A stretch of DNA of 64,000 bases from Ehretia macrophylla. Taxonomy: Eukaryota; Streptophyta; Magnoliopsida; Boraginales; Ehretiaceae. The notes below the pieces were generated by a model. The model was not told the origin of the DNA. It saw only the letters and a program-made list of their open reading frames with translations, and did no database searches. A program made the translations under genes and the position numbers. Below, in pieces: positions 1 through 43,740 of this stretch (position 1 is its first letter; every line of letters starts with the position of its first letter). Where the stretch lies: the NCBI GenBank assembly GCA_037974665.1, contig CM075775.1, forward strand, positions 39,458,152 to 39,522,151, read 5' to 3'.

Positions 1-1009
1 GCGACGGAGACTAGGTCCCAAGCCCCACGGCCTCGGTTTGCGGGTCCAGCCTCTACGTGCCACGAAGTTGTCTTGCCCAAGGTGCAGTGGGATTCGGTAA
101 TAGAAATGTGATGGATTAGGTTGTCGTCCGTTTCGCGGCTCACGACGTACAATTCGGGATGAAAAAATAGCACAAAAAAAGAAAAGTCTTCCGAAACTAA
201 TGAAAACATTCAATTTAGAGCACTGAAAATAGGCGTAACCGTGTAGGCTTGCTGCCCCTATCGTAGAGCTCTTAGAAAGCTTTCCAACGGTATGCTGTGC
301 ATCACGTAACTCCTTACGAATCAAAAGTTATGGCCACCGGAGCAGAAGAGACCTGGTCCCACGCCCCACGCCCTCGGTTTACGGGCCCAGCCTCGACATG
401 TATCGAAGTTGTCTTACCCAAGGTACCATGGGATTCGGTAATAGAAATGTGAAGGATTAGGTTGTCGTCCTTTTCGCTACTCACGACGTAAGATCCGCGA
501 TGAGAAAACAACGTAAAAGATGAAAAGTGTCCTGACACTAGTGACAACGTTCGATATTGGGCTTCGAAAACAGGCGTAGCCGAGCAGGCTTGCTGCCCCC
601 GTCGTAGAGCTCTCGGAGAGCTTTCCAACGGTATGCTGTGCACCGCAAAATTCTTTACAGATCAATAGTTATGGGCACCGCAGTGACGGAGACCTGGTCC
701 CAAACCCCACGCCCTCGATTTGCCGGCCAGCCTCTACGTGAGGCGAAGGTGTCTTGCCCAAGGTGGAGAGGGGGTCGGTGATAGAAATGTGATGGATTAG
801 GTTGTCGTCCTTTTCCCGGCTCACGATGTACGATCCGGGGTAGAAAAACTACGCAAATGACGTAAAGTGTCCCGAAATTGATGAAAACATTACATTTGGG
901 CTTCAAAAATAGGCGCTGCCGAGCAGGCTTGCTGCCCCCGTCGTAGAGCTCTCAGAGAGCTTTCTAACGTTATCTTGCACTCTGCGTAACTCTTTACAGA
1001 TCAAACGTT
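1..1009. repeat. Shortened first HOR unit with A/B hybrid monomer
   Basis: This unit has three monomers rather than four. The first (window start to 329) opens like class A (GACTAGGTCCCAAGCC, CGGGTCCAGCC) but continues like class B (AGGTGCAGTGGG, then GAGCACTGAAAATAGGCGTAACC). The switch lies between about 58 and 85. A class C monomer (330-670) and a class D monomer (671-1009) follow. The pattern is that expected from unequal crossover between adjacent A and B monomers, which removes one monomer length. The monomer is cut by the window edge. Confidence 0.8.
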
Positions 1010-1350
1010 ATGGGTACCAGAGCGACGGAGACTAGGTCCCAAGCCCCATGTCCTCGGTTTGCGGGTCCAGCCTCTACGTGCAGCGAAGTTGTCTTGCCCA
1101 AGGTGCCTTGGGATTCGGTAATATAGATGTGATGGATTAGGTTGTCGCCCTTTTGGCTGCTCATGACGTACGATTCGTGACGAAAAAACATCGCAAAAGG
1201 AAAAAAGTGTCCTAAAATTGATGAAAATGTTCGATTTTAGGCCCCGAAAACAGACGCAGCCAAGCAAGCTTGTTGCCCCCATCATAGAGCTCTCAGAGAG
1301 CTTTCCAACAGTATGCTGTGCGCTGCGTAACTCCTTGCAGATCAAAAGTT
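1010..1350. repeat. Satellite monomer class A (representative)
   Basis: A 341-bp monomer. Class marks are CCAGAGCGACGGAGACTAGGT near the start, CGGGTCCAGCC, AATATAGATGTGATGG, GTCGCCCTTTTGGCTGCTCA, and CAGCCAAGCAAGCTTGTTGCC near the end. It carries the dyad AGCTCTCAGAGAGCT at 1288-1302. It recurs once per HOR unit, ten times. Confidence 0.9.
1288..1302. other. Conserved dyad in satellite monomer (representative)
   Basis: AGCTCTCAGAGAGCT is a perfect inverted repeat: seven-base arms AGCTCTC and GAGAGCT around one A. The same dyad, or AGCTCTTAGAGAGCT with six-base arms, is present at the equivalent place in most monomers across the window, just before TTTCCAACGGTATG. It could act as a protein-binding or hairpin-forming site. 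The sequence shows conservation only, not function. Confidence 0.7.
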
Positions 1351-1690
1351 ATGGGCACTAGAGCTACGGAGACCTGGTTTAAAGCCCCACGCCCTCAGTT
1401 TGCGTGCCTAGCCTCTATGTGAGGCGAAGTTGTCTTGCCCAAGTTGCTGTGGATTCGGTAATAGAAATGTGATGGATTAGGTTGTCGTCCTTTTAGCGGC
1501 TCACGATGTACGATCCGGGGCGAAAAAATAGCACAAAAGAAGAAAAGTCGCCCGAAATAGATGAAAACATTCAATTTAGAGCGCTGAAAATAGGCATAAC
1601 TGTGTAGGCTTGCTGCCCCTATCGTAGAGCTCTTAGAGAGCTTTCCAACGGTATGCTGTGCGTTGCGTAACTCCATACGAATCAAAAGTT
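1351..1690. repeat. Satellite monomer class B (representative)
   Basis: A 340-bp monomer following class A. Class marks are CACTAGAGCTACGGAGACC or CACTAGAGCGACGGAGACC, TCAGTTTGCGTGCC, AGCCTCTATG, a TTTAGAGCGCTGAAAATAGG block, and GTAACCGTGTAGGCTTGCTG. Its dyad has the variant AGCTCTTAGAGAGCT. Two subforms exist in the array (GGTTTAAAGCCCC and GGTCCAAAGCCCA), so class B is itself heterogeneous. Confidence 0.88.
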
Positions 1691-2031
1691 ATGGGCACAA
1701 GAGCAGAAGAGACCTGGTCCCACGCCCCACGCCCTCGGTTTATGGGCCCAGCCTCTACGTGAAGTGAAGTTGTCTTGCCCAAGGTGCCATGGGATTCGGT
1801 AATAGAAATGTGATGGACTAGGTTGTCGTCCTTTTCGCGGCTCACGATGTATGATCCGGGATGAAAAAACCGCACAAAAGAAGAAAAATATCCCAAAACT
1901 GATAAAAACGTTCAATTTTGAGCTCTGAAAATAGGCGCAGCCGAGCAGGCTTCCTGCTCCTATCGTAGATCTTTTAGAGAGCTTTGCAACGGTATGCTGT
2001 GCGCTGCAAAACTCTTTACAGATCAAAAGTT
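1691..2031. repeat. Satellite monomer class C (representative)
   Basis: A 341-bp monomer following class B. Class marks are GGAGCAGAAGAGACCTGGTC (or AAGAGCAGAAGAG), GGTTTACGGGCCCAGCC, often GTGTACCGAAGATGTCTTGC, GCAACGGTATGCTGTGC, and CCGCAAAACTCTTTAC in place of the usual CCGCGTAACTCC. It is the class that varies most in length; the copy ending near 8820 has lost eight bases in its A-rich tract. Confidence 0.87.
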
Positions 2032-2371
2032 ATGGGTATCGAAGTGACGGAGACCTGGTCTCAAGCCCCACGCCCGCGGTTTGCAGGCCCAACCTCTTCG
2101 TGAGGTAAAGTTGTCTTGCCAAAGGTGCTGTGGGATTCGGTAATAGAAATGTGATGGATTAGGTTGTCGTCCTTTTCCCGGCTCACGACGTACAATCCGG
2201 GGTAGAAAAACTGTACAAATGACGTAAAGTGTCCCGAAATAGATGAAAACATTACATTTGGGCTTCAAAAATAGGTGCTGCCGAGCAGGCTTGCTGCCCC
2301 CATCGTAGGGCTCTCAGAGAGCTTTCTAACGTTATGTTCCGCTCTGCGTAACTCTTTACAGATCAAACGTT
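2032..2371. repeat. Satellite monomer class D (representative)
   Basis: A 340-bp monomer closing the HOR unit. Class marks are ACCGAAGCGACGGAGACC, GGCCCAACCTCTACG, GTCTTGCCAAAGGTGCTGTG, TCCGGGGCAGAAAAACTGCG, GTTACATTTGGGCTTCAAAA, and ATCAAACGTTATGGG at the junction with the next class A monomer. Class D copies near 3390, 6120, 10200 and 14285 are very similar to one another. Confidence 0.88.
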
Positions 2372-5300
2372 ATGGGCACCAGAGCGACGGAGACTAGGTC
2401 CCAAGCCCCACGCCCTCGGTTTGCGGGTCCAACCTCTACGTGCGGTGAAGTTGTCTTGCCCAAGGTTCCTTGGGATACGGTAATATAGATGTGATGGATT
2501 AGGTTGTCGCCCTTTTGGCTGCTCACGACGTATGATTCGCGAAGAAAAAACATCGTAAAAGAAAAAAAATGTTCCGAAATTGATGAAAAAGTTCCATTTT
2601 AGGCCCAGAAAACAGGCGCAGCCAAGCAAGCTTGTTGCCCCCATCGTAGAGCTCTCAGAGGGCTTTCCAATAGTATGCTGTGCGCTGCGTAACTCCTTGC
2701 AGATCAAAAGTTATGGGCACTAGAGCTACGGAGACCTGGTTTAAAGCCCCACGCCCTCAGTTTGCGTGCCTAGCCTCTATGCGAGGCGAAGTTATCTTGC
2801 CCAAGGTGCCGTGGGATTCAGTAATAGAAATGTGATGGATTAGGTTGTCGTCCTTTTTGTGGCTCACGACATACAATCTGGGACGAAAAAACAGCGCAAA
2901 AGAAGAAAAGTCTCCCTAAGCTGATGAAAACATTCGATTTAGAGTGCTGAAAATAGGCGTAACCGTGTAGGCTTGCTGCCCCTATCGTAGAGCTCTTAGA
3001 GAGCTTTCCAACGGTATGCTGTGCGTTGCGTAACTCCATACGAATCAAAAGTTATGGGCACAAGAGCAGAAGAGACCTGGTCCCACGCCCCACGCCCTCG
3101 GTTTACGGGCCCAGCCTCTACGTGTACCGAAGATGTCTTGCTCAAGGTGCCATGGAATTCAGTAATAGAAATGTGATGGATTAGGTTATCATCCTTTTCG
3201 TGGCTCACGACGTACGATCCGGGATGAAAAAACAGCGCAAAAGAAGAAAAGTGTCCTAAAAATGATGAAAATGTTCAATTTTGTGCTATGAAAATAGATG
3301 CAGCCGAGCAGGCTTCCTGACCAAATCGTAGAGCTCTTAGAGAGCTTTGCAACGGTATGCTGTGCACCGCAAAATTCTTTACAAATCAAAAGTTATGGGC
3401 ACCGAAGCGACGGAGACCTGGTCCCAAGCCCCACGCCCTCGGTTTGCAGGCCCAACCTCTACATGAGGTGAAGTTGTCTTGCCAAAGGTGCTGTGGGATT
3501 CGGTAATAGAAATGTGATGGATTAGGTTGTCGTCCTTTTCTCGGCTCACGACGTATGATCCGGGGCAGAAAAACTGCGCAAATGAAGAAAAGTGTCCCAA
3601 AATTGATGAAAACGTTACATTTGGGCTTCAAAAACAGGCGCTGCCGAGCAGGCTTGCTGCCCCCAATGTAGAGCTTTCAGAGAGCTTTCTAACTTTATGC
3701 TGCGAGCCGCGTAACTCTTTACGGATCAAACGTTATGGGCACCAGAGCGACGGAGACTAGGTCCCAAGCCCCACGCCCTTGGTTTGCGGGTCCAGCCTCT
3801 AAGTGCAGCGAAGTTGTCTTGCCCAAGGTGCCGTGGGATTCGGTAATATAGATGTGATGGATTAGGTTGTCGCCCTTTTGGCTGCTCATGACGTACGATT
3901 CGTGACGAAAAAACATCGCAAAAGAAAAAAAGTGTCCTGAAATTGATGAAAATGTTTGATTTTAGGACCCGAAAACAGACGCAGTCAATCAAGCTTGTTG
4001 CCCCCATCATAGAGCTCTCAGAGAGCTTTCCAACAGTGTGCTGTGCGCCGCGTAACTCCTTAAAGATCAAAAGTTATGGGCACTAGAGCGACGGAGACCT
4101 GGTCCAAAGCCCAACGCCCTTAGTTTGCGTGCCCAGCCTCTATGTGAGGCGAAGTTGTCTTGCCCAAGGTGCAGTGGGATTCGGTAATAGAAATGTGATG
4201 GATTAGGTTGTCGTCCTTTTAGCGGCTCACGACGTAAAATTCGGGACGAAAAAATAGCACAAATGATGAAAAGTCTCCCGAAACTGATCAAAACATTCAA
4301 TTTAGAGCGCTGAAAATAGGTATAACCGTGTAGGCTTGCTGCCCCTATCGTAGAGCTCTTAGAGAGATTTCCAACGGTATGCTTTGCGTCGCGTAACTCC
4401 TTACGAATCAAAAGTTATGGGCACCGGTGCAGAAGAGATCTAGTCCCACACCCCACGCCCTCGGTTTGCGGGCCCAGCCTCTACGTGAAGCGAAGTTGTC
4501 TTGCCCAAGGAGCCATGGGATTCAGTAATAGAAATGTGAGGGATTAGGTTGTCGTCCTTTTTACGGCTCATGACGTACGATCCGATACGGAAAAACAGTG
4601 CAAAAGAAGTAAAGTGTCCCAAAACTGATGAAAATGTTCAATTTCGGGCTCTGAAAAAAGGCGCAGTCGAGCAGTCTTCCTGCCCCTATCGTAGATCTCT
4701 TAGAGAGCTTTGCAACGGTATGCTGTGCGCCGCAAAACTCTTTACAGATCAAAGGTTATGGGTGTCGAAGTGACGGAGACCTGGTCTCAAGCCCCACGCA
4801 CTCGGTTTCCAGGCCCAACCTCTAAATGAAGTGAAATTGTCGTGCCCAAGGTGCTGTGGGATTCGGTAATAGAAATGTGATGGATTAGGCTGTCGTCCTT
4901 TTCCCGGCTCACGACGTACGATCCGGGGTAGAAAAACTACGCAAATGACGTAAAGTGTCCCGAAATTGATGAAAACATTAATTTGGGCTTCAAAAATAGG
5001 CGCTGCCGAGCAGGCTTACTGCCCCCATCGTAGAGCTCTCAGAGAGCTTTCTAACGTTATGTTCTGCTCTGCGTAACTCTTTACAGATCAAATGTTATGG
5101 GTACCAGAGCGACGGAGACTAGGTCCCAAGCCCCACGCCCTCGGTTTGCGGGTCCAACCTCTACGTGCGGCGAAGTTGTCTTGCCCAAGGTGCCTTGGGA
5201 TTCGGTAATATAGATGTGATGGATTAGGTTGTCGCCCTTTTGGCTGCTCACGACGTATGATTCACGACGAAAAAACATCACAAAAGAAAAAAAGTGTTTC

Positions 5301-8300
5301 GAAATTGATGAAAAAGTTCCATTTTAGGCCCCGAAAACAGGCGCAGCCAAGCAAGCTTGTTTCCCCCATCATAGAGCTCTCAGAGAGCTTTGCAACAGTA
5401 TGTTGTGCGCCGCGTAACTCCTTACAGATCAAAAGTTATGGGTACTAGAGCGACGGAGACCTAGTCCAAAGCCCAACGCCCTCAGTTTGCATGCCCAGCC
5501 TCTATGTGAGGCGAAGTTGTCTTGCCCAAGGTGCCGTGGAATTCGGTAATAGAAATGTGATGGATTAGGTTGTCGTCCTTTTTGTGGCTCACGACATACA
5601 ATCTGGGACGAAAAAACAGCGCAAAAGAAGAAAAGTCTCCCTAAGCTGATGAAAACATTCGATTTAGAGTGCTGAAAATAGGCGTAACCGTGTAGGCTTG
5701 CTGCCCCTATCGTAGAGCTCTTAGAGAGCTTTCCAACGGTATGCTGTGCGTTGCGTAACTCCATACGAATCAAAAGTTATGGGCACCGGAGTAGAAGAGA
5801 GCTGGTCCCACGCCCCACGCCCTCGGTTTACGGGCCCAGCCTCTACGTGTACCGAAGATGTCTTGCTCAAGGTGCCATGGAATTCAGTAATAGAAATGTT
5901 ATGGATTAGGTTGTCGTCCTTTTCACGACTCACGACGTACGATTTGGGACGAAAAAACAGCGCAAAAGAAGAAAAGTATCCCAAAACTGAAGAAAATGTT
6001 CGATTTTGGGCTCTGAAAATAGGTGCAGTCGAGCAGGCTTCCTGACCAAATCGTAGAGCTCTTAGAGAGCTTTGCAACGGTATGCTGTGCACCGCAAAAT
6101 TCTTTACAAATCAAAAGTTATGGGCACCGAAGCGATGGAGACCTGGTCCCAAGCCCCACGCCCTCGGTTTGTAGGCCCAACCTCTACGTGAGGTGAAGTT
6201 GTCTTGCCAAAGGTGCTGTGGGATTCGGTATTAGAAATGTGATGGATTAGGTTGTCGTCCTTTTCGCGGCTCACGACGTATGATCCGGGGCAGAAAAACT
6301 GCGCAAATGAAGAAAAGTGTCCCAAAATTGATGAAAACGTTACATTTGGGCTTCAAAAATTGGTGCTGCCGAGCAGGCTTGCTGCCCCCATCGTAGAGCT
6401 CTCAGAGAGCTTTCTAACGTTATGTTGCGCTCTGCGTAACTCTTTACAAATCAAACGTTATGGGCACCAGAGCAACGGAGATTAGGTCCCAAGCCCCACG
6501 CTCTCGGTTTGCGGGTCCAGCCTCTACATGCGGCGAAGTTGTCTTGCCCAAGGTGCCTTGGGATTCGGTAATATAGATGTGATGGATTAGGTTGTCGCCC
6601 TTTTGGCTGCTCACAACGTATGATTCGCGACGAAAAAACATCATAAAAGAAAAAAAGTGTCCCGAAATTGATGAAAACGTTCCATTTTAGGCCCCAAAAA
6701 CAGGCGCAGCCAAACAAGCTTGTTTCCCCCATCATAGAGCTCTCAGAGAGCTTTCCAACAGTATGCTGTGCGCCGCGTAACTCCTTACAGATCAAAAGTT
6801 ATGGGCACTAGAGCGACGGAGACCTGGTCCAAAGCCCAACGCCCTCAGTTTGCGTGTCCAGCCTCTATGTGAGGCGAAGTTGTCTTGCCCAAGGTGCTGT
6901 GGGATTCGGTAATAGAAATGTGATGGATTACGTTGTCGTCCTTTTCGCGGCTAACGACGTACAATCCGGGACGAAAAAATAGCACAAAAGAAGAAAAGTC
7001 TCCCGAAATTGATGAAAACATTAAATTTAGAGTGCTAAAAATAGGCGTAACCGTGTAGGCTTCCTGCCCTATCGTAGAGCTCTTAGAGAGCTTTCCAACG
7101 GTATGCTGTGCGTCGCGTAACTCCTAACGAATCAAAAGTTATGGGCACCGGAGCAGAAGAGACTTTGTCCTACGCCCCACGCCCTCAGTTTATAGGCCCA
7201 GCCTCTACATGAAACGAAGATGTCTTGCCCAAGGTGCCATGGGATTCGGTAATAGAAATGTGATGGATTAGGTTGTCGTCCTTTTCGCGGCTCACGACGT
7301 ACGATCCGGGATGAAAAACCAGCGCAAAAAGAGAAAAGTGTCCCAAAACTGATGAAAAAATTCAATTTTGGGATCTGAAAATAGGCGCAGTCTTTCAGGC
7401 TTCCTTCCCCCATCGTATAGCTATTAAAGAGCTTTCTAACGGTATGCTATGCGCCGCGTAACTCGTTACGGATCAAAAGTTATGGGCACCAGAGCGACGG
7501 AGACCTGGTCCCAAGCCCCACGCCCTCGGTTTGCAGGCCCAACCTCCACGTGGGGTGAAGTTATCTTTCCCAAGGTGCCGTGGGATTCGGTAATAGAAAT
7601 GTGATGGATTAGGTTGTCGTCCTTTTCACGGCTTACGACATACGATACGGGACAGAAAAACAGCGCAAAAGAAGAAAAGTGTCCCGAAATTGATGAAAAC
7701 ATTACATTTGGGCTTCAAAAATAGGCGCTGCCGAGCAGGCTTGCTGTCCCCGTCGTAGAGCTCTCAGAGAGCTTTCTAACGTTATGTTGCGCTCTGCGTA
7801 ACTCTTTACAGATTAAACGTTATTGGCACCAGAGTGACGGAGACTAGGTCCCAAGCCCCACGCCCTTGGTTTGCGGGTCCAGCCTCTACGTGCGGCGAAG
7901 TTGTCTTGCCCAAGGTGCCTTGGGATTCGGTAATATAGATGTGATGGATTAGGTTGTCGCCCTTTTGGCTGCTCATGACGTACGATTCGCGACGAAAAAA
8001 CATCGCAAAAGAAAAAAAGTGTCCCGAAATTGATGAAAACGTTCAATTTTGGGCCCCGAAAACAGGCGCAGCCAAGCAAGCTTGTTGCCCCCATCATAGA
8101 GCTCCCAAAGAGCTTTCTAACAATATATTGTGCGCCGCGTAACTCCTTACAGATCAAAAGTTGTGTGCACTAGAGCTACGGAGACCTGGTTTAAAGCCCC
8201 ACGCCCTCAGTTTGCGTGCCTAGCCTCTATGCGAGGCGAAGTTATCTTGCCCAAGGTGCCGTGGGATTCAGTAATAGAAATGTGATGGATTAGGTTGGCG

Positions 8301-11300
8301 TCCTTTTCGCGGCTAACGACGTACAATCCAGGACGAAAAAATAGCACAAAAGAAGAAAAGTCTCCCGAAACTGATCAAAACATTCAATTTAGAGCACTGA
8401 AAATAGACGTAACCGTGTAGGCTTGCTGCCCTTATCGTAGAGCTCTTAGAGAGCTTTCCAACGGTATGCTGTGCGCCACGTAACTCCTTACGAATCAAAT
8501 GTTATGGGCATCGGAGCAGAAGAGACCTGGTTCCACTCCCAAGCCCTCGGTTTATGGGCCCAGCCTCTACATTTACTGAAGATGTCTTGCCCAAGGTGCC
8601 ACGGGGTTCAGTAATAGAAATGTGATGGATTAGGTTGTCGTCCTTTTCGCGGCTCACGACGTATGATCCGGGACTAAAAAACAGCGAAAAAGTGTCCCAA
8701 AACTGATGAAAATGTTCAATTTCGGGCTCTAAAAATAGGCGTAGTCGAGCAGGTTTCCTGCCCCCGTCATAGAGCTCTTAGAGAGCTTTGCAATGGTATG
8801 TTGTGCGCCGCAAAAACTCTTTACAGATCAAAAGTTATGGGCACCGAAGTGACGGAGACCTGGTCCCAAGCCCCACGCCCTCGGTTTGCAGGCCCAACCT
8901 CTACGTGAGGTGAAGTTGTCTTGCCAAAGGTGTTGTGGGATTCGATAATAGAAATGTGATGGATTAGGTGGTCGTCCTTTTCCCGGCTCACGACGTACGA
9001 TCCGGGGTAGAGAATCTGCGCAAATGACGTAAAGTGTCCCGAAATTGATGAAAACATTACATTTGGGCTTCAAAAATAGGCGCTGTCGAGCAGGCTTGCT
9101 GCCCCCATCGTAGAGCTCTCAGAGAGCTTTCTAACATTATGTTGCGCTCTGCGTAACTCTTTACAGATCAAACGTTATGGGCACCAAAGCGACGGAGACT
9201 AGGTCCCAAGCCCCACGCCCTCGGTTTGCGGGTCCAGCCTCTACGTGCGGCGAAGTTGTCTTGCCCAAGGTTCCTTGGGATTCGGTAATATAGATGTGAT
9301 GGATTAGGTTGTCGCCCTTTTGGCTGCTCACGACGTATGATTCGCGACGAAAAAACAACTTAAAAGAAAAAAAGTATCCCGAAATTGATGAAAACGTTCC
9401 ATTTTAGGCCCCGAAAATAGTCGCAGCCAAGCAAGCTTGTTGCCCCCATCATAGAGCTCTCAGAGAGCTTTCCAACAGTATGTTGTGCGCTGCGTAACTC
9501 CTTGCAGATCAAAAGTTATGGGCACTAGAGCTACGGAGACCTGGTTTAAAGCCCCACGCCCTCAGTTTGCGTGCCTAGCCTCTATGCGAGGCGAAGTTGT
9601 CTTGCCCAAGGTCACGTAGGATTCCGTAATAGAAATGTGAACGATTTGGTTGTCGTCCTTTTCGCAGCTCACGACGTACGATCCGAGACGGAAAAACAGC
9701 ACAAACCAAGGAAAGTCTCTCGAAACTGATGAAAACATTCAATTTAGAGCATTGAAAATAGGCGTAACCGTGTAGGCTTGCTGCCCCTATCGTAGAGCTC
9801 TTAGAGAGCTTTCCAACGGTATGCTGTACGTCGCGTAACTCCTTACGAATCAAAAGTTATGGGCACCGGAGTAGAAGAGACTTGGTCCCACACCCCACGC
9901 CCTCGGTTTACAGTCCCAGCCTCTACATGTACAGAAGATGTCTTGCTCAAGGTGCCATGGGATTCGGTAATAGATATGTGATGGATTAGGTTGTCGTCAT
10001 TTTCGCATCTCAGGACGTATGATCTGGGACGAAAAAACAGCGCAAAAGAAGAAAAGTATCCCAAAACTGAAGAAAATATTCAATTTTGGGATCTGAAAAG
10101 AGGTGCAGTCGAGCAGGCTTACTGACCAAATCGGAGAGCTGTTAGAGAGCGTTGCAACGGTATGCTCTGGACCGCAAAATTCTTTACAAATCAAAAGTTA
10201 TGGGCACCGAAGCGATGGAGACCTGGTCCCAAGCCCCACGCCCTGGGTTTGTAGGCCCAACCTCTACGTGAGGTGAAGTTGTCTTGCCAAAGGTGCTGTG
10301 GGATTCGGTATTAGAAATGTGATGGATTAGGTTGTCGTCCTTTTCGCGGCTCACGACGTATGATCCGGGGCAGAAAAACTGCGCAAATGAAGAAAAGTGT
10401 CCCAAAATTGATGAAAACGTTACATTTGGGCTTCAAAAACAGGCGCTGCCGAGCAGGCTTGCTGCCCCCATCGTAGAGCTCTCAGAGAGCTTTCTAACGT
10501 TATGTTGCGCTCTGCGTAACTCTTTACAGATCAAAACGTTATGGGCACCAGAGCGACGAAGACTAGGTCCCAAGCCCCACGCCCTCGGTTTACGGGTCCA
10601 GCCTCTACGTGCGGCGAAGTTGTCTTGCCCAAGGTGCCTTGGGATTCGGTAATATAGATGTGATGGATTAGGTTGTCGCCCTTTTGGCTGCTCACGATGT
10701 ATGATTCGCGACGAAAAAACATCGCAAAAGAAAAAAAGTGTCCCGAAATTGATGAAAAAGTTCCATTTTAGGCCCCGAAGACTGGCGCAGCCAAGCAAGC
10801 TTGTTGCACCCATCATAGAGCTCTCAGAGAGCTTTCCAACAGTATGCTGTGCACCGCGTAACTCCTTACATATCAAAAGTTATGGGCACTAGAGCGATGG
10901 AGACTTGGTCCAAAGCCCAACGCCCTCAGTTTGTGGGCCCAGCCTCTACGTGAAGCGATGTTGTCTTGCCCAAGGTACTGTGGGATTTTTTAATAGAAAT
11001 GTGATGGATTAGGGTGTCGTCCTTTTCGTGGCTAACGACATACAATCCGGGACGAAAAAACATCACAAAATAAGAAATGTATCCCGAAACTGATGAAAAC
11101 ATTCGATTTAGAGTGCTGAAAATAGGCGTAACCGTGTAGGCTTGCTGCCCCTATCGTAGAGCTCTTAGAGAGCTTTCCAACGGTATGCTGTGCGTTGCGT
11201 AACTCCATACGAATCAAAAGTTATGGGCACAAGAGCAGAAGAGACCTGGTCCCACGCCCCACGCCCTCGGTTTACGGGCCCAGCCTCTACGTGTACCGAA

Positions 11301-14300
11301 GATGTCTTGCTCAAGGTGCCATGGAATTCAGTAATAGAAATGTTATGGATTAGGTTGTCGTCCTTTTCACGACTCACGACGTACGATTTGGGACGAAAAA
11401 ACAGCGCAAAAGAAGAAAAGTATACCAAAACTAATGAAAACGTTCAATTTTGGGCTATGAAAATAGGCGCAGTCGAGCAGGCTTCCTGACCAAATCGTAG
11501 AGCTCTTAGAGAGCTTTGCAACGGTATGCTGTGCACCGCAAAATTCTTTACAAATCAAAAGTTATGCGCACCGAAGCGATGGAGACCTGGTGCCAAGCCC
11601 CACGCCCTCGGTTTGAAGGCCCAACCTCTACGTGAGGTGAAGTTGTCTTGCCAAAGGTGCTGTGGGATTCGGTAATAGAAATGTGATGGATTAGGTTGTC
11701 GTCCTTTTCGCGGCTCACGACGTATGACGCGGGGCAGAAAAACTGCGCAAATGAAGAAAAGTGTCCCAAAATTGATGAAAACGTTACATTTGGGCTTCAA
11801 AAACAGGCGCTGCCGAGCAGGCTTGCTGCCCCCAATGTAGAGCTTTCAGAGAGCTTTCTAACTTTATGCTGCGAGCCGCGTAACTCTTTACGGATCAAAC
11901 GTTATGGGCACCAGAGCGACGGAGACTAGGTCCCAAGCCCCACGCCCACGGTTTGCGGGTCCAGCCTCTACGTGCGGCGAAGCTGTCTTGCCCAAGGTGC
12001 CTTGGGATTCGGTAATATAAATGTGATGGATTAGGTTGTCGTCCTTTTGGCTGCTCACGACGTACGATCCGCGACGAAAAAACATTGTAAAAGAAAAAAA
12101 GTGTCCCAAAATTGATGAAAACGTTTGATTTTGGGCCCCAAAAATAGGTACAGCCAAGCAAGCTTGTTGCCCCCATCGTAGAGCTCTCAGAGGGCTTTCC
12201 AATAGTATGCTGTGCGCTGCGTAACTCCTTGCAGATCAAAAGTTATGGGCACTAGAGCTACGGAGACCTGGTTTAAAGCCCCACGCCCTCAGTTTGCGTG
12301 CCTAGCCTCTATGCGAGGCGAAGTTATCTTGCCCAAGGTGCCGTGGGATTCAGTAATAGAAATGTGATGGATTAGGTTGTCGTCCTTTTTGTGGCTCACG
12401 ACATACAATCTGGGACGAAAAAACAGCGCAAAAGAAGAAAAGTCTCCCTAAGCTGATGAAAACATTCGATTTAGAGTGCTGAAAATAGGCGCAACCGGGT
12501 AGGCTTGCTGCCCCCATCGTAGAGCTCTCAGAGAGCTTTCCAACGGTATGCTGTGCGCCGCGTAACTCCTTACGAATCAAAAGTTATGGGCACTGGAGCA
12601 AAAGAGACCTGGTCCCACGCGCCACGCCCTCTGTTTGCGGGCCCAGCCTCTACATGAAGCGAAGTTGTCTTGCCCAAGGTGCCGTGGGATTCGGTAATAG
12701 AAATGTGATGGATTAGGTTATCGTCCTTTTCGCGGCTAACGACGTATGATCCTGGGCGAAAAAACAGCGCAAAAGTAGAAAAGTTTCCCAAAACTGATGA
12801 AAAGGTTCAATTTTGGGCTCTGAAAATAGGCGTAGTCGAGCAGGCTTCTTGCCCCTGTCATAGAGCTCTTAGAGAGCTTTGCAACAGTATGCTGTGAGCC
12901 GCAAAACTCTTTACAGATCAAAAGTGGGCACCGAAGTAACGGAGACCTGGTCCCAAGCCCCACGCCCTCAGTTTGCAGGCCCAACCTCTACGTGAGGTGA
13001 AGTTGTCTTGCCAAAGGTACTGTGGGATTCGGTAATGGAAATGTGATGGATTAGGTTGTCGTCCTTTTCCAGGCTCACGACGTACGATACGCGGTAGAAA
13101 AACTGCGCAAATGACGTAAAGTGTCCCGAAATTGATGAAAACATTACATTTGGGCTTCAAAAATAGGCGCTGCCGAGAAGGCTTGCTACCCCCGTCGTAA
13201 AGATCTCAGAGAGCTTTCTAACATTATGTTGCGCTCTGCGTAACTCTTTACAGATCAAACGTTATGGGCACTAGAGCGACGGAGACTAGGTCCCAAGCCC
13301 CACGCCCTCGGTTTGCGGATCCAGCCTCTACGTGCGGCGAAGTTGTCTTGCCCAAGGTGCCTTGGGATTCGGTAATATAGATGTGATGGATTAGGTTGTC
13401 GCCCTTTTGGCTGCTCACGACGTACGATTCGCGACGAAAAGACATCGCAAAAGAAAAAAGTGTCCCGAAATTGATGAAAACGTTCGATTTTGGGCCCCGA
13501 AAACAGGCGCAGCTAAGCAAGCTTGTTGCCCCCATCGTAGAGCTCTCAGAGGGCTTTCCAATAGTATGCTGTGCGCTGCGTAACTCCTTGCAGATCAAAA
13601 GTTATGGGCACTAGAGCTACGGAGACCTGGTTTAAAGCCCCACGCCCTCAGTTTGCGTGCCTAGCCTCTATGCGAGGCGAAGTTGTCTTGCACAAAGTGC
13701 CGTGGGATTCGGTAATAGAAATGTGATGGATTAGGTTGTCGTCCTTTTTGCGGCTAACGACGTACAATCCGGGATGAAAAAACAGCGCAAAAGGAGAAAT
13801 GTATCCCGAAAATGATGAAAACTTTCAATTTAGAGCGCTGAAAATAGACGTAACTGTGTAGGCTTGCTGCCCCTATCGTAGAGCTCTTTGAGATCTTTCC
13901 AACGGTATACTGTGCGTCGCGTAACTCTTTGCGAATCAAAAGTTATGGGCACCGGAGCAAAGGAGACTTGGTCCCACGCCCCACGCCCTCAGTTTATAGG
14001 CCCAGCCTCTACATGAAGCGAAGTTGTCTTGCACAAGGTGCAGTGGGATTCGGTAATAGAAATGTGATGGATTAGGTTGTCGTCCTTTTCGCGGCTCACG
14101 ATTTATGATCCGGGAAGAAAAAACAGCGCAAAAGTAGAAAAGTAGCCCAAAATTGATGAAAATGTTCAATTTTGGGCTCTGAAAATAGGTGCAGTCGAGC
14201 AGGCTTCCTGACCAAATCGTAGAGCTCTTAGAGAGCTTTGCAACGGTATGCTGTGCACCGCAAAATTCTTTACAAATCAAAAGTTATGGGCACCGAAGCG

Positions 14301-14625
14301 ATGGAGACCTGGTCCCAAGCCCCACGCCCTCGGTTTGTAGGCCCAACCTCTACGTGAGGTGAAGTTGTCTTGCCAAAGGTGCTGTGGGATTCGGTATTAG
14401 AAATGTGATGGATTAGGTTGTCGTCCTTTTCGCGGCTCACGACGTATGATCCGGGGCAGAAAAACTGCGCAAATGAAGAAAAGTGTCCCAAAATTGATGA
14501 AAACGTTACATTTGGGCTTCAAAAACAGGCGCTGCCGAGCAGGCTTGCTGCCCCCAATGTAGAGCTTTCAGAGAGCTTTCTAACTTTATGCTGCGAGCCG
14601 CGTAACTCTTTACGGATCAAACGTT

Positions 14626-16310
14626 ATGGGCACCAGAGCGACGGAGACTAGGTCCCAAGCCCCACGCCCTTGGTTTGCGGGTCCAGCCTCTAAGTGCAGC
14701 GAAGTTGTCTTGCCCAAGGTGCCGTGGGATTCGGTGATAAAAATGTGATGGATTAAGTTGTCGTCCTTTTCGCAACTTACGACGTACGATCTGGGATGGA
14801 AAAATAGCACAAAAGAAGAAAAGTGTCCCGAAACTGATGAAAACGTTTGATTTAGGGCTTCAAAAATAGGCGCAGCCAAGTAGGCTTGTTTCCTCCGTTG
14901 TAGAGCACTCAAAGAGCTTTCGAACGGAATGCTTTACGCCGTGTAACTCCTTACGAATCAAAAGTTATGGGCACCGGAGCAAAGGAGACCTGGTCCCAAT
15001 CCCCACGCCCTCAGTCTACGGGCCCATCCTCTATGTGAAGCGAAGATGTCTTGCCCAAGGTGTCGTGGGATTTGGTAATAGAAATGTGATGGATTAGGTT
15101 GTCGTCCTTTTCGCGGCTCACGATGTACGATCCGGGATGAAAAAACAGTGCAAAAGAAGAAAAGTGTCCCAAAACTGATGAAAACATTTGATTTTGGGCT
15201 TCAAAAATTGGTGCAGCCTAGCAAACTTGCTGCCCCCGTCATAGAGCTCTCTGAAAGCTTTCTAACGGTATGCTGTGTGCAGCGTAACTTCTTACGGATC
15301 AAAAGTTATGGGCACCAGAGTGACGGAGACTTGGTCCCGAGCCCCACACCCTCGGTTTGCCGGCCCAGCCTCTACGTGAGGCGAAGTTTTCTTGCCCAAT
15401 GTGCCGTGGGATTCGGTAATATAAATGTGATAGATTAGGTTGTCGTCCTTTTCGCGGCTCACGATGTACGATCCGGGACGGAAAAACAGTGCAAAAGAAG
15501 AAAAGTGTCCCGAAACTGGTTAAAACATTCGATTTTGGGCTTTGAAAATAGGTGCAGCCTAACAGGCTTGCTGCCCCTGTTGTAGAGCTCACAGAGTGCT
15601 TTCCAACGGCATGCTGTGCGCAGTGTAACTTCTTACGGATCAAAAGTGATGGGCACCGGAGCGACGGAGACCTGGTCCCGAACCCCACGCCCTCGGTTTG
15701 CCGGCCTAGCCTCTACGTGAGGCGAAGTTTTCTTCCCCAAGGTGCCGTGGGATTCTGTAATAGAAATGTGATGGATTAAGTTATCATCCTTTTCGCGGAT
15801 CACGACGTACGATCCGGGATGAAAAAACAGTGCAAAAGAAGAAAAGTGTCCTGAAACTGATGAAAACGTTCGATTTTGGGCTCTAAAAATAGGCGTAGCC
15901 TAGTAGGCTTGATGCACCTATCGTAGAGCTCTCAGAGAGCTTTCCAACGGCATGTTGTGCGCCGCGTAACTCCTTACGGATCAAAAGTTATGGGCACCAA
16001 AGCGACGGAGACCCGATCCCAAGCCACGCGCCCTCGGTTTACGGGCCCAGCCTCTACGTGAGGCGAAGTTGTCTTGCCCAAGGTGCCGTAGGATTCGGTA
16101 ATAGAAATGTGATGGATTAGGTTGTCGTCCTTTTCATGGCTCACGACGTACGATCCAGGACGAAAAAATAGCCCAAAAGAAGAAAAGTGTCCCGAAACTG
16201 ATGAAAACATTTGATTTAGGGCTCCGAAAATAGACGCAACCGAGCAGGCTTGTTGCCCCCGTCGTAGAGCTCTCAGAGAGCTTCCCAGCGGTATGCTGGG
16301 CACCGCGTAA
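14626..16310. repeat. HOR boundary and irregular monomers
   Basis: The monomer at 14626 begins as class A (GACTAGGTCCCAAGCC, CGGGTCCAGCCTCTAAG, matching the copy at 3735) and changes near 14732: class A would read CGGTAATATAGATG, but here it is CGGTGATAAAAATG, and the following segment lacks the class A TTGGCTGC mark. The next four or so monomers are not class A-D and show no obvious repeat partner nearby. No gene is visible. Confidence 0.8.
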
Positions 16311-19300
16311 CTCTTTACGAATCAAAAGTTATGGGCACCGGAGAAAAGGAGACTTAGTCCTAAGCCCCACACCCTCTGTTTGCGGGCCCAGCCTCTACGT
16401 GAAGCGAAGTTGTCTTGCCCAAGATGCCATGGGATTCGGTAATAGAAATGTGATGGATTAGGTTGTCATCTTTTTCGCGGCTCACGACGAATGACCGGGA
16501 TGGAAAAACTGTGCAAAAGAAGAAAAGTGTCCAGAAATTGATGAAAACGTTCGATTTTGGGCTCCGAAAATAGGTACAGCCAAGTAGGCTTATTGCCCCC
16601 GTCGTAGAGCTCTCAGAGAGCTTTCCAACGGTATGTTGTGCGCCGCGCAACTCCTTACGGATCAAAAGTTATGGGCACCAGAGCGACGGAGACCTGGTCC
16701 CAAGCACCACGCCCTCGGTTTGCAGGCCCAGCCTCCACATGAGGCAAAGTTGTCTTACCCAAGGTGCCATGGGATTCGGTAATAGAAATGTGATGGATTA
16801 GGTTGTCGTCCTTTTCGTAGCTCACGACGTATAATCCGGGACTGAAAAATAGCGCAAAAGAAGAAAAGTAACGCAAAACTGATGAAAGTGTTCGAGTTAT
16901 GGCTCAGAAAATAGGTGCAACCGAGTAGACATGCTGCCCCCATCGTGGAGCTCACAGAGAGCTTTCCAATGGCATGCTGTGCCCCACGTAACTCCTTACG
17001 AATCAAAAGTTATGTGCAACGGAGCAAAGGAGACCTGGTCCCAAGCCCCACGCCCTCGGTTTGTGAGCCCAACCTATACGTGAGGCGAAGTTGTCTTGCC
17101 CATGGTGCCGTGGGATTCGGTAATAGAAATGTGGTGGATTAAGTTGTCGTCCTTTTCGCAGCTCACGACATACGATTCAGGACGGAAAAACAATGTAAAA
17201 TAAGAAAAGTGTTCTAAAACTGATGAAAACGTTGAATTTAAGGCTCCGAAAATAGGTATAACCGGGCAGGCTTGCTACCCCCGTCGTAGAGCTCTCAGAG
17301 AGCTTTGCAATGGTATGGTGTGCGCTATGTAACTCTTCATGAATCAAAAGTTATGGGCACCGGAGCAAGGGAGACCTGGTCCTACGCCCCACTCCCTCAG
17401 TTTGCGGGCCCAGCATCTATGTGAGCCGGTGTTGCCTTGCCCAATGTGCTATAGGATTCGGTAATAGAAATGTGATGGATTAGGTTGTCGTCCTTTTCGC
17501 GGCTCACGACGTACGATCCGGGACGAAAAAACAATGTAAAATTAGAACAGTGTCCCAAAACTTATGAAAACATTTGATTTAGGGCTCCAAAAATAGGTGT
17601 AACCCAGCAGGCTTGCTGCCCCCGTCGTAGAGCTCTCAGAGAGCTTTCCAATGGTATGCTGTGCACCGCGTAACTCCTTACGAATCAAAAGTTATGGGCA
17701 ACGGAACAAAGGAGACCTGGTCCAAAGCCTAAAACTCTCTGTTTGCGGGCCCAGCCTCTACGTGAAGCGAAGTTGTCTTGCCCAAGATGCCATGGGATTC
17801 GGTAATAGAAATGTGATGGATTAGGTTGTCATCTTTTTCGCGGCTCACGACGAATGACCGGGATGGAAAAACTGTGCAAAAGAAGAAAAGTGTCCAGAAA
17901 TTGATGAAAACGTTCGATTTTGGGCTCCGAAAATAGGTACAGCCAAGTAGGCTTATTGCCCCCGTCGTAGAGCTCTCAGAGAGCTTTCCAACGGTATGTT
18001 GTGCGCCGCGCAACTCCTTACGGATCAAAAGTTATGGGCACCAGAGCGACGGAGACCTGGTCCCAAGCACCACGCCCTCGGTTTGCAGGCCCAGCCTCTA
18101 CGTGAGGCGAAGTTGTCTTGCCTAAGTTGTCATGGGATTCAGTAATAAAAATGTGATGGATTAGGTTGTCGTCCTTTTCGCAGCTCACGACGTACTATCC
18201 AGGACTAAAAAATAGCGCAAAAGAAGAAAAGTAACGCAAAACTGATGAAAGTGTTCGAGTTATGGCTCAGAAAATAGGTGCAACCGAGTAGACATGCTGC
18301 CCCCATCGTGGAGCTCACAGAGAGCTTTCCAATGGCATGCTGTGCCCCACGTAACTCCTTACGAATCAAAAGTTATGTGCAACGGAGCAAAGGAGACCTG
18401 GTCCCAAGCCCCACGCCCTCGGTTTGTGAGCCCAACCTATACGTGAGGCGAAGTTGTCTTGCCCATGGTGCCGTGGGATTCGGTAATAGAAATGTGGTGG
18501 ATTAAGTTGTCGTCCTTTTCGCAGCTCACGACATACGATTCAGGACGGAAAAACAATGTAAAATAAGAAAAGTGTTCTAAAACTGATGAAAACGTTGAAT
18601 TTAAGGCTCCGAAAATAGGTATAACCGGGCAGGCTTGCTACCCCCGTCGTAGAGCTCTCAGAGAGCTTTGCAATGGTATGGTGTGCGCTATGTAACTCTT
18701 CATGAATCAAAAGTTATGGGCACCGGAGCAAGGGAGACCTGGTCCTACGCCCCACTCCCTCAGTTTGCGGGCCCAGCATCTATGTGAGCCGGTGTTGCCT
18801 TGCCCAATGTGCTATAGGATTCGGTAATAGAAATGTGATGGATTAGGTTGTCGTCCTTTTCGCGGCTCACGACGTACGATCCGGGACGAAAAAACAATGT
18901 AAAATTAGAACAGTGTCCCAAAACTTATGAAAACATTTGATTTAGGGCTCCAAAAATAGGTGTAACCCAGCAGGCTTGCTGCCCCCGTCGTAGAGCTCTC
19001 AGAGAGCTTTCCAATGGTATGCTGTGCACCGCGTAACTCTTTACGAATCAAAAGTTATGGGCACCGGAGAAAAGGAGACTTAGTCCTAAGCCCCACACCC
19101 TCTGTTTGCGGGCCCAGCCTCTACGTGAAGCGAAGTTGTCTTGCCCAAGATGCCATGGGATTCGGTAATAGAAATGTGATGGATTAGGTTGTCATCTTTT
19201 TCGCGGCTCACGACGAATGACCGGGATGGAAAAACTGTGCAAAAGAAGAAAAGTGTCCAGAAATTGATGAAAACGTTCGATTTTGGGCTCCGAAAATAGG

Positions 19301-20795
19301 TACAGCCAAGTAGGCTTATTGCCCCCGTCGTAGAGCTCTCAGAGAGCTTTCCAACGGTATGTTGTGCGCCGCGCAACTCCTTACGGATCAAAAGTTATGG
19401 GCACCAGAGCGACGGAGACCTGGTCCCAAGCACCACGCCCTCGGTTTGCAGGCCCAGCCTCTACGTGAGGCGAAGTTGTCTTGCCTAAGTTGTCATGGGA
19501 TTCAGTAATAAAAATGTGATGGATTAGGTTGTCGTCCTTTTCGCAGCTCACGACGTACTATCCAGGACTAAAAAATAGCGCAAAAGAAGAAAAGTAACGC
19601 AAAACTGATGAAAGTGTTCGAGTTATGGCTCAGAAAATAGGTGCAACCGAGTAGACATGCTGCCCCCATCGTGGAGCTCACAGAGAGCTTTCCAATGGCA
19701 TGCTGTGCCCCACGTAACTCCTTACGAATCAAAAGTTATAGGCAATGGAGCGACGGAGACCTTGTCCCAAGCCCCACGCCCTAGTTTTGCAAGCCCAGCC
19801 TCTACGTGAAGTGAAGTTGTCTTGCCTAAGTTGCCATGGGATTCGGTAATAGAAATGTGATGGATTAGGTTGTCGTCCTTTTCGCAGCTCACGACGTACT
19901 ATCCAGGACTAAAAAATAGCGCAAAAGAAGAAAAGTGACCCGAAACTTATGAAAGTGTTCGAGTAATGGCCCAGAAAATAGGTGCAACCGAGTAGACATG
20001 CTGCCCCCATCGTGGAGCTCACAGAGAGCTTTCCAATGGCATGCTGTGCCCCACGTAACTCCTTACGAATCAAAAGTTATGTGCAACGGAGCAAAGGAGA
20101 CCTGGTCCCAAGCCCCACGCCCTCGGTTTGTGAGCCCAACCTATACGTGAGGCGAAGTTGTCTTGCCCATGGTGCCGTGGGATTCGGTAATAGAAATGTG
20201 GTGGATTAAGTTGTCGTCCTTTTCGCAGCTCACGACATACGATTCAGGACGGAAAAACAATGTAAAATAAGAAAAGTGTTCTAAAACTGATGAAAACGTT
20301 GAATTTAAGGCTCCGAAAATAGGTATAACCGGGCAGGCTTGCTACCCCCGTCGTAGAGCTCTCAGAGAGCTTTGCAATGGTATGGTGTGCGCTATGTAAC
20401 TCTTCATGAATCAAAAGTTATGGGCACCGGAGCAAGGGAGACCTGGTCCTACGCCCCACTCCCTCAGTTTGCGGGCCCAGCATCTATGTGAGCCGGTGTT
20501 GCCTTGCCCAATGTGCTATAGGATTCGGTAATAGAAATGTGATGGATTAGGTTGTCGTCCTTTTCGCGGCTCACGACGTACGATCCGGGACGAAAAAACA
20601 ATGTAAAATTAGAACAGTGTCCCAAAACTTATGAAAACATTTGATTTAGGGCTCCAAAAATAGGTGTAACCCAGCAGGCTTGCTGCCCCCGTCGTAGAGC
20701 TCTCAGAGAGCTTTCCAATGGTATGCTGTGCACCGCGTAACTCCTTACGAATCAAAAGTTATGGGCAACGGAACAAAGGAGACCTGGTCCAAAGC
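16311..20795. repeat. Second HOR: four-monomer unit (1363 bp) in three copies
   Basis: Copies lie at about 16311-17729, 17730-19036 and 19037-20795. A distinctive block (TGCAACCGAGTAGACATGCTG, GATCGTGGAGCTCACAG-like) recurs at 16915, 18278, 19641 and 19982. The first two steps are exactly 1363; the last is one monomer (341), so the third copy contains one extra monomer. Another block (CAATGTAAAATTAGAACAG) recurs at about 17531, 18893 and 20598. Copies are close to identical except for a diverged patch at about 16730-16860 in copy 1, where copies 2 and 3 agree with each other. These monomer types are not those of the 1-14.6 kb HOR, so this is a separate, apparently recent amplification. Confidence 0.9.
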
Positions 20796-22845
20796 CCAAC
20801 GCCCTTGGTTTGCAGGCCCAGCTTCTACACGAAGCGAAGTTGTCTTGCCCAAGGTGCCATGGGATTCGGTAATAGAAATGTGATGGATTAGGTTGTCGTC
20901 CTTTTCGCTGCTCACGACCTACGATCCGGGATAGAAAAATAGCGCAAAAGAAGAAAAGTGTCCCGAAATTGATGAAAGTGTTCAATTTTGGGCTACGAAA
21001 ATAGGCATAGCCAAGAAAGCTTGATGCCCCCATTGTAGAGATCTCAAAGCGCTTTCCAACGGTAGGCTGTGTGCCGCATAACTCCTTACGAATCAAAAGT
21101 TATGGGCACCGGAGCAAAGGAGACCTAATCCCACGCCCCACGCCCTCGATTTGTAGGCCTAGCCTCTACGTGAGCCAAAGTTGCCTTCCCCAAGGTGCCG
21201 TAGGATTTGGTAATAGAAATGTGATGGATTAGGCTGTCGTCCTTTTCGCTGCTCAAGATGTACGATCTGGGACGAGAAAATAGCGCAAAAGAAGAAAAGT
21301 ATCACGAAATTGATGAAAACATTCGATTTTGTGCTCCGAAAACAAGCGCAGCCAAGCAAGCTTAACACCCCCGTCATAGAGCTCTCAGAGAGCTTTGCAA
21401 TGGTATGCTATGCACCGTGTAACTCCTTACGGATCAAAAGTTATGGACACTAGAGCGATGGAGACCTGGTCCAAAGCACTACGCCCTCGGTTTGCGGGCC
21501 CAACCTCTACGTGAGGCGAAGTTTTCTTCCCCAAGGTGCCATGGGATTCGGTAATAGAAATGTAATGGATTAGGTTGTCGTCCTTTTCGCAGCTCACAAC
21601 GTATGATCCGGGATGAAAAAACAGCGCAAAAATAGAAAAGTGTCCCAAAACTAAAGAAAATGATAGATTTTGGGCTCCGAAAATACGCGCAGGCAAGCAA
21701 GTTTGCTGCCCCCATAGTAGAGCTCTCAGAGAGCTTTCCAATGGTATGTTGTGCACCGCGTAACTCCTTATGAATCAAAAGTTATGGGCACCAGAGCAAA
21801 GGAGACCTGGTCCTAAGCCAAACGCCCTCGATTTGTGAGCCCAGCCTCTACATGAAGCGAAGTTGTCTTGCCCAAGGTGCCATGGGCTTCGGTAATAGAA
21901 ATGTGATGGATTTGGTTATCTACCTTTTCGCAGTTCACGACATATGATCCAGGACGAAAGAACAACACAAAAAAAAAGTGTCCCAAAATTGATAAAAATA
22001 TTTGATTTTGGGCTCCAAAAATAGGCACAGCCAAGCAAGCTTGTTGTCCCCATCCTAGAGCTCTCAGAGAGCTTTCCAACGGTATACTGTGCGTCTCGTA
22101 ACTCCTTACGGATCAAAAGTTATGGGTACCAGAGCGACGGAGACCTAGTCCCAAGCATCACGCCCTCGGTTTGCGAGCCCAGCCTCTACGTGGGGTGAAG
22201 TTGTCTTGCACAAGGTACCGTGGGATTCAGTAATAGAAATATGATGGATTATGTTGTCGTCCTTTTCGCGGCTCACAACGTACGATCCGAGACGAAAAAA
22301 TAGCGTAAAAGAAGAAAAGTGTCCCAAAATTGATGAAAACGTTCAATTTAGGGCTCCGAAAATAGACGCAACCGAGCAGGCTTGCTGCCCCCGTCGTAGA
22401 GCTCTCAGAGAGCTTTCCAACGGTATGTTGTGCACTGCGTAACTCCTTACAAATCAAAAGTTATGGACACTGGAACAAAGGTGATCTAGTCCTAAGCACA
22501 ATGCCCTCAGTTTGGGGGCCTAGCCTCTACGTGAAGCGAAGTTATCTTGCCCAAGGTGCCATGGGATTCGGTAATAGAAATTTTATAGATTAGGTTGTCG
22601 TCCTTTTTGCGGTTCACGACGTACGATCTGGGACGAAAAAATAGCGCAAAAGAAGAAAAATGTCATGAAACTGATGAAAACGTTCAATTTTGGGCTCCGA
22701 AAACAAGCACAACTGGGCAGGCTTGTTGCCCCTATCGTAGAGCTCTCATAGTGCTTTCCAATGGTATCCTATGAACCGTTTAACTCCTTACGAATCAAAA
22801 GTTACGGGCACCGGAGCGACGGAGACGTAGTCCCACGCCCCACGC
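19980..22845. repeat. Long satellite duplication, copy 1 (4088-bp offset)
   Basis: Nearly the whole stretch reappears 4088 bases later (4087 after a single-base loss near 26065). Twelve monomers of 340.7 bp make 4088. Matching landmarks are 20752/24840, 21427/25515 and 22145/26232. Long parts look identical by eye (21440-21975, 22087-22380). Shorter parts clearly differ (21015-21100, 21975-22085, 22390-22410). Similarity falls off near 22845, where CACGCCCTCAGTTTG faces CAGGCTCTCGGTTTG in the second copy. Confidence 0.88.
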
Positions 22846-24067
22846 CCTCAGTTTGCGGGCCCAGCCTCTACGTGAGGCGAAGTTGTCTTGCCCAAGGTAT
22901 TGTGAGATTCGGTAATAAAAATGTGATGGATTAGGTTGTCGTCCTTTATACGGCTCACGACGTACGATCCGGGGCAGAAAAACTGCACAAAAGAAGAAAA
23001 TTGTCTCGAAACTGATAAAAACGTTCGATTTTGGCTTTCGAAATAGGCACAGCCAAGCAGGCTTCCTGCCCCCGTTGTAGAGCTCTCAGAGAGCTTTCCA
23101 ACGGTATGCTGCACGCCACGTAACTCGTTACAAATCAAAAGTTATGGGCACCAGAGCGATGGAGACCTGGTCCCAAGCCCCACGCCCTCGATTTGCGGGC
23201 CCAGCCTCTACGTGAGGCGAAGTTGTCTTGCCCAAGGTGTAGTGGGATTCGGTAATAGAAATGTGATGGATTAGGTTGTCGTCCTTTTCGCGGCTTACGA
23301 CGTACGATCCAGGATGGAAAAATAGCGGAAAAGAAGAAAAGTGGCCCAAAACTGATGAGAACGTTCGACTTTGGCCTCCGAAAATAGGCGCAGCCAAGCA
23401 GGCGAGTTGCCTACGTCATAGAGCTCTCGGAGAGCTTTCTAACGGTATGTTGTGCGCCGCACAACTCCTTACGGATCAAAAGTTATGGGCACCAGAGCAA
23501 CCGAGACCTAGTCCCAAGCACCACGCCCTCGGTTTGCAAGCCCAGCCTCTACGTGAGGCGAAGTTGTCTTGCCTAAGTTGCCATGGGATTCGATAATAGA
23601 AATGTGATGGATTAGGTTGTCGTCCTTTTTGTAGCTCACAACGTACTATCCGGGACTGAAAAATAGCGCAAAAGAAGAAAAGTAACGCAAAACTGATGAA
23701 AGTGTTCGAGTTATGGCTCAGAAAATAGGTGCAACCGAGTAGACATGCTGCCCCCATCGTGGAGCTCACAGAGAGCTTTCCAATGGCATGCTGTGCCCCA
23801 CGTAACTCCTTACGGACCAAAAGTTATGGGCACCAGAGCGACGGAGACCTAGTCCCAAGCACCACGCCCTCTGTTTGCAGGCCCAGCCTCTACGTGATGT
23901 GAAGTTGTCTTGCCCAAGTTGTCATGGGATTCAGTAATAGGAATGTGATGGATTAGGTTGTCGTCCGTTTCGCGGCTCACGACGTACTATCCAGGACGAA
24001 AAAACAGCGCAAAAGAAGAAAAGTAACGCAAAACTGATGAAAGTGTTCGAGTTATGGCTCAGAAAAT

Positions 24068-26932: not shown

Positions 26933-27230
26933 TCTCGGTTTGCGGGCCCAGCCTCTACGTGAGGCGAAGTTTTCTTGCCCAAGGTGTCATGGGATTCGGT
27001 AATAGAAATGTGATGGATTAGGTTGTCGTCCTTTATGCGGCTCACGACGTACGATCCGGGGCAAAAAAACTGCGCAAAAGAAGAAAATTGTCCCGAAACT
27101 GATAAAAATGTTCGATTTTGGCTTTCGAAACAGGCATAGCTGAGCAGGCTTGCTGCCCCCGTTGTAGAGCTCTCAGAGAGCTTTCCAACGGTTTCCTGCG
27201 CCCCACATAACTCCTTACAAATCAAAAGTT

Positions 27231-35678: not shown

Positions 35679-35790
35679 TGTCACGCCCCAACCCGGCCTA
35701 TAAGGTTAGACTAGGGTGTGACCTAAACGTTCAGGACATGTCACATGCTTAACCGTTCATGAAGATTTAACATTTAACGTCTTGGCCTAA

Positions 35791-43739: not shown

Positions 43740-43740
43740 A

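Follow-up and report, generated by a model that had tools for sequence, protein, structure and literature searches.

A probable relict four-monomer higher-order repeat in a 341-bp satellite array, with signs of short-tract exchange between its units

Introduction

In primate alpha satellite, diverged monomers follow one another in a fixed order that is itself repeated as a unit, a higher-order repeat (HOR), and the most homogeneous human HOR arrays are near-identical. On the human X chromosome, according to passages of PMC2834710, CENH3 chromatin occupies a central position, where the HORs are youngest and most homogeneous, and is flanked by older, more diverse monomers. Plant centromeric tandem repeats are described in part of PMC12371157 as usually organized into higher-order structures, with hop as a case without them. 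HORs are also reported for Brachypodium (part of PMC10910784) and for the Salicaceae, some of them in arrays without CENH3 peaks (part of PMC12046899), and among 171 species of animals and plants with Sanger data, 76 had clear HORs (part of PMC4053949). Together, these excerpts do not bear out the first-pass annotation of the DNA analyzed here, which held that such regular HORs are less often reported in plants.

Here we describe HOR1, a four-monomer HOR of a 341-bp satellite at the left end of the window, the whole 64,000-nucleotide stretch of DNA that was analyzed. Because plant HORs are well documented, the block is in itself ordinary. It shares with primate alpha satellite the repetition of diverged monomers in a fixed order, a likeness of organization; the monomer here is 341 bp and HOR1 units are 89-95% identical. 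Brachypodium CentBd/CentBs, Populus Palv156 and, as cited in other papers, Arabidopsis CEN178 are, in the excerpts available, likewise multi-monomer blocks repeated together, with variable block sizes in Brachypodium; their likeness to the present array, with its 341-bp monomer, is one of description. Similarity within Palv156 falls with distance (part of PMC12046899), whereas no fall is seen in HOR1. The non-centromeric Populus and Salix satellites Palv148 and Sar145, which form relatively ancient HORs without CENH3 peaks in the same excerpts (PMC12046899), can be set beside the also old HOR1 by description, although their monomers, judged by the names, differ in length. In maize centromere cores (Shi et al. 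2010, as relayed in part of the commentary PMC2834710), exchange is unrelated to distance, as in HOR1, but the maize evidence concerns transposon-marker exchange between homologues, whereas here exchange would have taken place between units of one array. None of the literature matches listed was a plant satellite monomer of 341 bp, the term referring there to an American pika repeat and to part of a base count; the family may well have been described elsewhere already.

Results

TRF placed a 341-bp array over 1-34606, with more of the repeat at about 50.4-54.3 kb (three overlapping rows) and 57.8-64 kb, and a monomer profile search of the window returned 134 matches in three arrays, all on the + strand. 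Beyond HOR1, the satellite continues to 34606 and resumes at 50385-54343 and 57805-64000. The lag tables kept all 134 monomers, so that partial ones lower the longer-lag values in two small arrays.

1..14615, + strand: HOR1, a four-monomer higher-order repeat of about 1362 bp per unit with 43 monomers (monomer profile, lags, phase test, tree)
1000..2361, + strand: example HOR1 unit, class order C-A-D-B (the letters are this analysis's own)
14616..16320, + strand: five monomers outside the HOR, the first of which (14616-14956) is a class C outlier with support of 97/92
50385..54343, + strand: satellite array without a period of four (lag 4 = 0.812, lags 1-3 = 0.805-0.813)
57805..64000, + strand: satellite array without a period of four (lag 4 = 0.805, lags 1-3 = 0.806-0.809), right edge open

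HOR1 consists of ten full units from 1000 onward and three leading monomers, the first of these partial, and the evidence for it comes from a single 14.6-kb stretch that the window truncates on its left side. The ten anchors of class C have their starts at 1000, 2362, 3725, 5087, 6450, 7812, 9167, 10531, 11894 and 13254, with the next boundary at 14616, giving spacings of 1362, 1363, 1362, 1363, 1362, 1355, 1364, 1363 and 1360. Both the four-monomer HOR of a 341-bp satellite and the anchor spacing of 1355-1364 bases noticed in the first-pass annotation were thus reproduced. Its starting point of 1010 was not: monomers 0-2 (1-999) already stand in class order, and HOR1 therefore continues past the window's left edge. 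The second of these three (D class, margin 0.035) has the weakest phase assignment of all 43.

Mean identity between aligned monomers in 1-14615 was 0.807, 0.802 and 0.808 at lags 1, 2 and 3, as compared to 0.906 at lag 4, and remained at 0.897-0.913 at all multiples of four from lag 8 to lag 32. The multimer copies are therefore more alike than the monomers within them, as a HOR demands. Diagonals equally strong at every 341 bp, with no stronger band at 1362, had been named in advance as the pattern that would speak against a HOR; the lag-4 band proved the stronger one, and the claim stands. Ungapped raw autocorrelation over 1010-14625 gave 0.627 at lag 341, 0.508 at 681 and 1022, and 0.502 at 1363. 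The 1362 band does not stand out in it, probably because 1-bp indels break register; aligned monomers are needed, and raw autocorrelation was dropped as a HOR test. When CpG columns were removed (267 columns kept), HOR1 persisted, with 0.93 at lag 4 versus 0.854-0.860 at lags 1-3.

Each of the 43 HOR1 monomers was assigned to its own phase by leave-one-out assignment, and each had its nearest neighbor among the 43 in phase, which shows a fixed order of distinct monomer classes; the observed lag-4 excess was attained by none of 5000 order shuffles. A maximum-likelihood tree was built from 127 of the 134 monomers, 7 partial or mis-cut ones having been left out of clustering, consensus and tree. 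In this tree, whose bootstrap is not fully settled, classes A, B and C each form one branch with support of 100/99 and class D one with 88/86, so that three classes have strong support as clades and the fourth moderate support. Cluster letters rest on an arbitrary cut-off of 0.15, and the tree and phase tests were preferred to them. The four classes do not share a common branch of their own and are interleaved with monomers from elsewhere in the window, none of which, outside 1-14615, is at least 90% identical to any inside.

Pairwise identity among the ten full units ranges from 0.892 to 0.947 (45 pairs) and shows no relation to distance (Spearman 0.094 over the 45 pairs; Mantel p for decay 0.71). 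HOR1 is not the most homogeneous or recent repeat within the window, as two blocks to its right, a second HOR (HOR2, 0.983) and a lag-12 duplication (0.972), are more alike.

16321..20750, + strand: HOR2, a second, younger four-monomer repeat built from a different monomer set (H I J K), with 92-100% identity between copies
19387..27220, + strand: tandem duplication with a 12-monomer lag that covers 11 monomers (19387-23133 versus 23475-27220), mean identity 0.972
26881..33662, + strand: older tandem duplication of ten monomers (26881-30253 versus 30254-33662), mean identity 0.923

HOR2 includes one five-monomer variant (H I I J K), and its lag-4 mean of 0.983 is taken over six pairs; the background for the duplication identities is 0.831 over 1653 pairs. 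HOR2 and the two duplications point to several rounds of block duplication, differing in age and size, within 34 kb. Monomer type J is present in four identical copies (from 17002, 18365, 20069 and 24157), its neighbors H and I differing by 0-8% between copies, and tract exchange may have occurred in this young block (17002-24497) too. At 29266-29912, two adjoining monomers span about 647 bp and not 682, owing to a deletion of about 35 bp that crosses the boundary between them in one of the two copies of the ten-monomer duplication; the deletion probably postdates the duplication, as the counterpart monomers at 32641-33321 are full length. Another internal deletion is seen in the middle array (53195-53761), where a truncated monomer of 243 bp is followed by one starting about ten bases into the unit.

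Nearest neighbors of adjacent HOR1 monomers often lie at differing unit distances, which is not expected from plain whole-unit duplication. Tract and simulation tests were carried out on the 40 of 43 HOR1 monomers that make up the ten full units. By site permutation (300 permutations), a shared tract was detected at p<=0.01 in 16 of 45 unit pairs; the tracts measure 140-379 bp and join units at distances of 1-8, with identity outside the tract of 0.887-0.936. At the level of monomers, 35 of 210 same-phase pairs reached p<=0.01, as did 29 of 693 different-phase pairs (about 4%, where 1% is expected), an excess indicating that the test is inflated by uneven rates along the monomer. Within-monomer tract tests at p<=0.005 were positive in 17/55 (class A), 5/55 (B), 3/55 (D) and 0/45 (C) pairs.

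Identical runs of at least 140 bp were found in 12 of 45 unit pairs. In 200 simulations on the best single tree with class-specific rates, such pairs averaged 0.185 and never exceeded 3, although long runs are made rarer there by the assumption of independent site rates and by a divergence slightly above that of the data (0.093 versus 0.087). The longest identical run was 357 (at most 229 simulated) and class heterogeneity 240 (at most 150 simulated). With runs and heterogeneity both beyond simulation, a single vertical history for the HOR1 units is rejected. A vertical signal is nevertheless present: ultrafast bootstrap support for a group of units 1, 3, 6, 7 and 9 is 100%, and units 1, 3 and 7 resemble each other in two or more classes, as expected from block duplication. 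We read this pattern as probable conversion atop some block duplication.

The 341-bp consensus contains 31 CpG sites, and transitions relative to it reach a fraction of 0.177 at CpG positions, 0.083 at the remaining C/G and 0.025 at A/T, in a spectrum that left out eight of the 134 monomers. This is as expected for long-methylated plant DNA, and it is from the spectrum that we infer methylation. The monomer had been described as close to two nucleosome lengths, which is true of its length only, as the consensus has no alike halves. A dimer of a 170-bp monomer was accordingly rejected (circular self-match of 0.29 at lag 167, highest 0.32 for lags 20-170). The CENP-B box core is TTCGNNNNANNCGGG; with two mismatches allowed, it matched the consensus once per strand, each time with two mismatches, and a CENP-B box satellite was likewise rejected, as was derivation of the monomer from the inserted retrotransposons (best match E = 0.46). 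A dyad in the consensus, AGCTCTCAGAGAGCT, has 7-bp arms and proves nothing about a centromere role; short dyads are said in part of PMC8997354 to be common in centromeres, those of plants included. Exact-pattern scans for the satellite in viral and prokaryote contigs gave 0 matches, as expected for a plant sequence.

The satellite is interrupted by LTR elements further right.

34607..50384, - strand: LTR retrotransposon without a long open reading frame, in the satellite (printed junctions, counted by hand)
46607..50384, - strand: 5' LTR of this outer element
43727..46606, - strand: its internal region
41268..43726 and 34607..35678, - strand: its 3' LTR
35679..41267, - strand: related LTR element nested in the 3' LTR of the outer element
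54344..57804, + strand: solo LTR of 3461 bp, TG...CA, with the 5-bp target duplication CCGAA

The outer element is flanked by the 5-mers GTAGC and GCAGC (one mismatch), while the nested element has no clean 5-bp target duplication (CCGAT / GATGC). Just inside the 5' LTR of the outer element lies TGGTATCAGAGC, and a purine tract precedes the 3' LTR. We take TGGTATCAGAGC to be the usual primer-binding site (initiator tRNA) of plant LTR elements, which indirectly supports a plant source for the satellite; the 3' motif of the outer element presumably resembles that of Tekay/Del-type chromoviruses. No long reading frame touches 34609-50391, where the longest stop-to-stop frame is 154 aa, and the solo LTR has no start-to-stop frame of at least 120 aa. 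Over the longest matches, the solo LTR is 82.6-88.9% identical to the LTRs of the outer element and lies in opposite orientation. These two related insertions (34607-57804) strike the monomer at nearby positions (near 249 and 261-263 of its 341 bp, a difference of about 12-14 bp), both within a region of it that is among the least conserved; with two events only, targeting was not accepted. Short tandem repeats with units of 10-44 bp occur in the LTR sequences at 40363-50117, and a 20-bp unit, TAAGGCACGAACTTCAAGAC, is shared by the two LTRs of the outer element (at 43359 and 50003). The two LTRs are 94.9-97.2% identical, above the HOR1 units, and at equal rates HOR1 is therefore probably older than the insertion. 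Tract exchange would lower, not raise, the apparent age of the HOR in this comparison.

Discussion

The reading we favor, at a probability of roughly 0.65, is that HOR1 is a relict: a higher-order repeat within a satellite array of (peri)centromere type, most likely from a plant, that arose in an old burst and then underwent decay and short same-phase exchange. Four already diverged monomers (about 80% alike) would have been amplified together, as a 1362-bp block, until there were ten units or more; the fixed order and the class clades are observed, and they suggest a single burst. The units would then have decayed by mutation, with the over-representation of C/G transitions in the spectrum suggesting methylation. 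Short tracts, visible as mosaics, appear to have been swapped between same-phase units several kilobases apart, probably by non-crossover gene conversion and not by repeated unequal crossover. Later amplification on the right would have used other monomers, giving HOR2 and the lag-12 duplication, and the LTR retrotransposons would have inserted further right. HOR1 probably has no function of its own and would be a mark left by the recombination through which such arrays stay alike. We hold more tentatively to a narrower version, in which HOR1 no longer expands and only phase-locked conversion of short tracts maintains its four-phase order, with copy number and order fixed. Overwriting of 140-380 bp in this way between same-phase monomers as much as 11 kb apart is possible, at odds somewhat short of even.

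Alternatively, the mosaic could be the product of unequal crossover or break-induced replication alone, acting over many rounds on sister chromatids without gene conversion. Both processes are considered as models of HOR growth in part of PMC8997354, and such rounds could likewise fragment shared blocks so that only short tracts remain. Duplications with lags of 4, 5, 10 and 12 monomers are directly visible in 16.3-33.7 kb, and five HOR1 units fall into a well supported group. However, the tracts measure 140-379 bp, lie between more diverged flanks and link units up to eight apart; each would need several further cuts, and identity does not drop with distance. Maize marker linkage, as presented in part of PMC2834710, shows no relation of short conversion tracts with distance, unlike crossing over. 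We consider an origin by crossover or break-induced replication alone rather doubtful. As for the four-phase order itself, repetitive DNA is prone to misassembly, and the order might in principle be an artefact of assembly or of monomer cutting; the phase agreement of all 43 monomers and the failure of every one of the 5000 shuffles to match it make this highly improbable. A collapsed or copied unit is also unlikely, as identity between any two of the ten units is at most 94.7%.

The first-pass annotation put HOR1 forward as a candidate active-centromere unit, should the array be centromeric. The sequence leans against this, as the units are diverged and a younger block adjoins them, and by the human X and Salicaceae yardsticks HOR1 is a poorer centromere candidate than that younger block. 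It looks more like an ageing part of an array, and its decay would be compatible with CENH3 on HOR1 monomers. HOR1 does run off the left edge of the window and could be the edge of a large active centromeric HOR array with a homogeneous CENH3 core to the left, an arrangement that would recall the human X, where older monomers flank the young CENH3-bearing HORs in the account excerpted from PMC2834710. Against this, the ten units show no gradient, the leftmost being no more alike than those further right (Spearman 0.094), and the youngest repeats in the window sit to the right of HOR1. We therefore regard an active core to the left as unlikely.

Within 34 kb, then, one satellite holds two HORs, one old and one young, and two duplications that differ in age, together with a clear signal of short-tract, distance-independent exchange between HOR1 units. 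With old and young blocks and this signal at one locus, crossover and conversion could be told apart there with haplotype data. If conversion alone does maintain HOR1, then HOR growth and HOR homogenization would be separable processes in a plant array. The locus also counsels caution, in that a regular HOR should not be equated with an active centromere.
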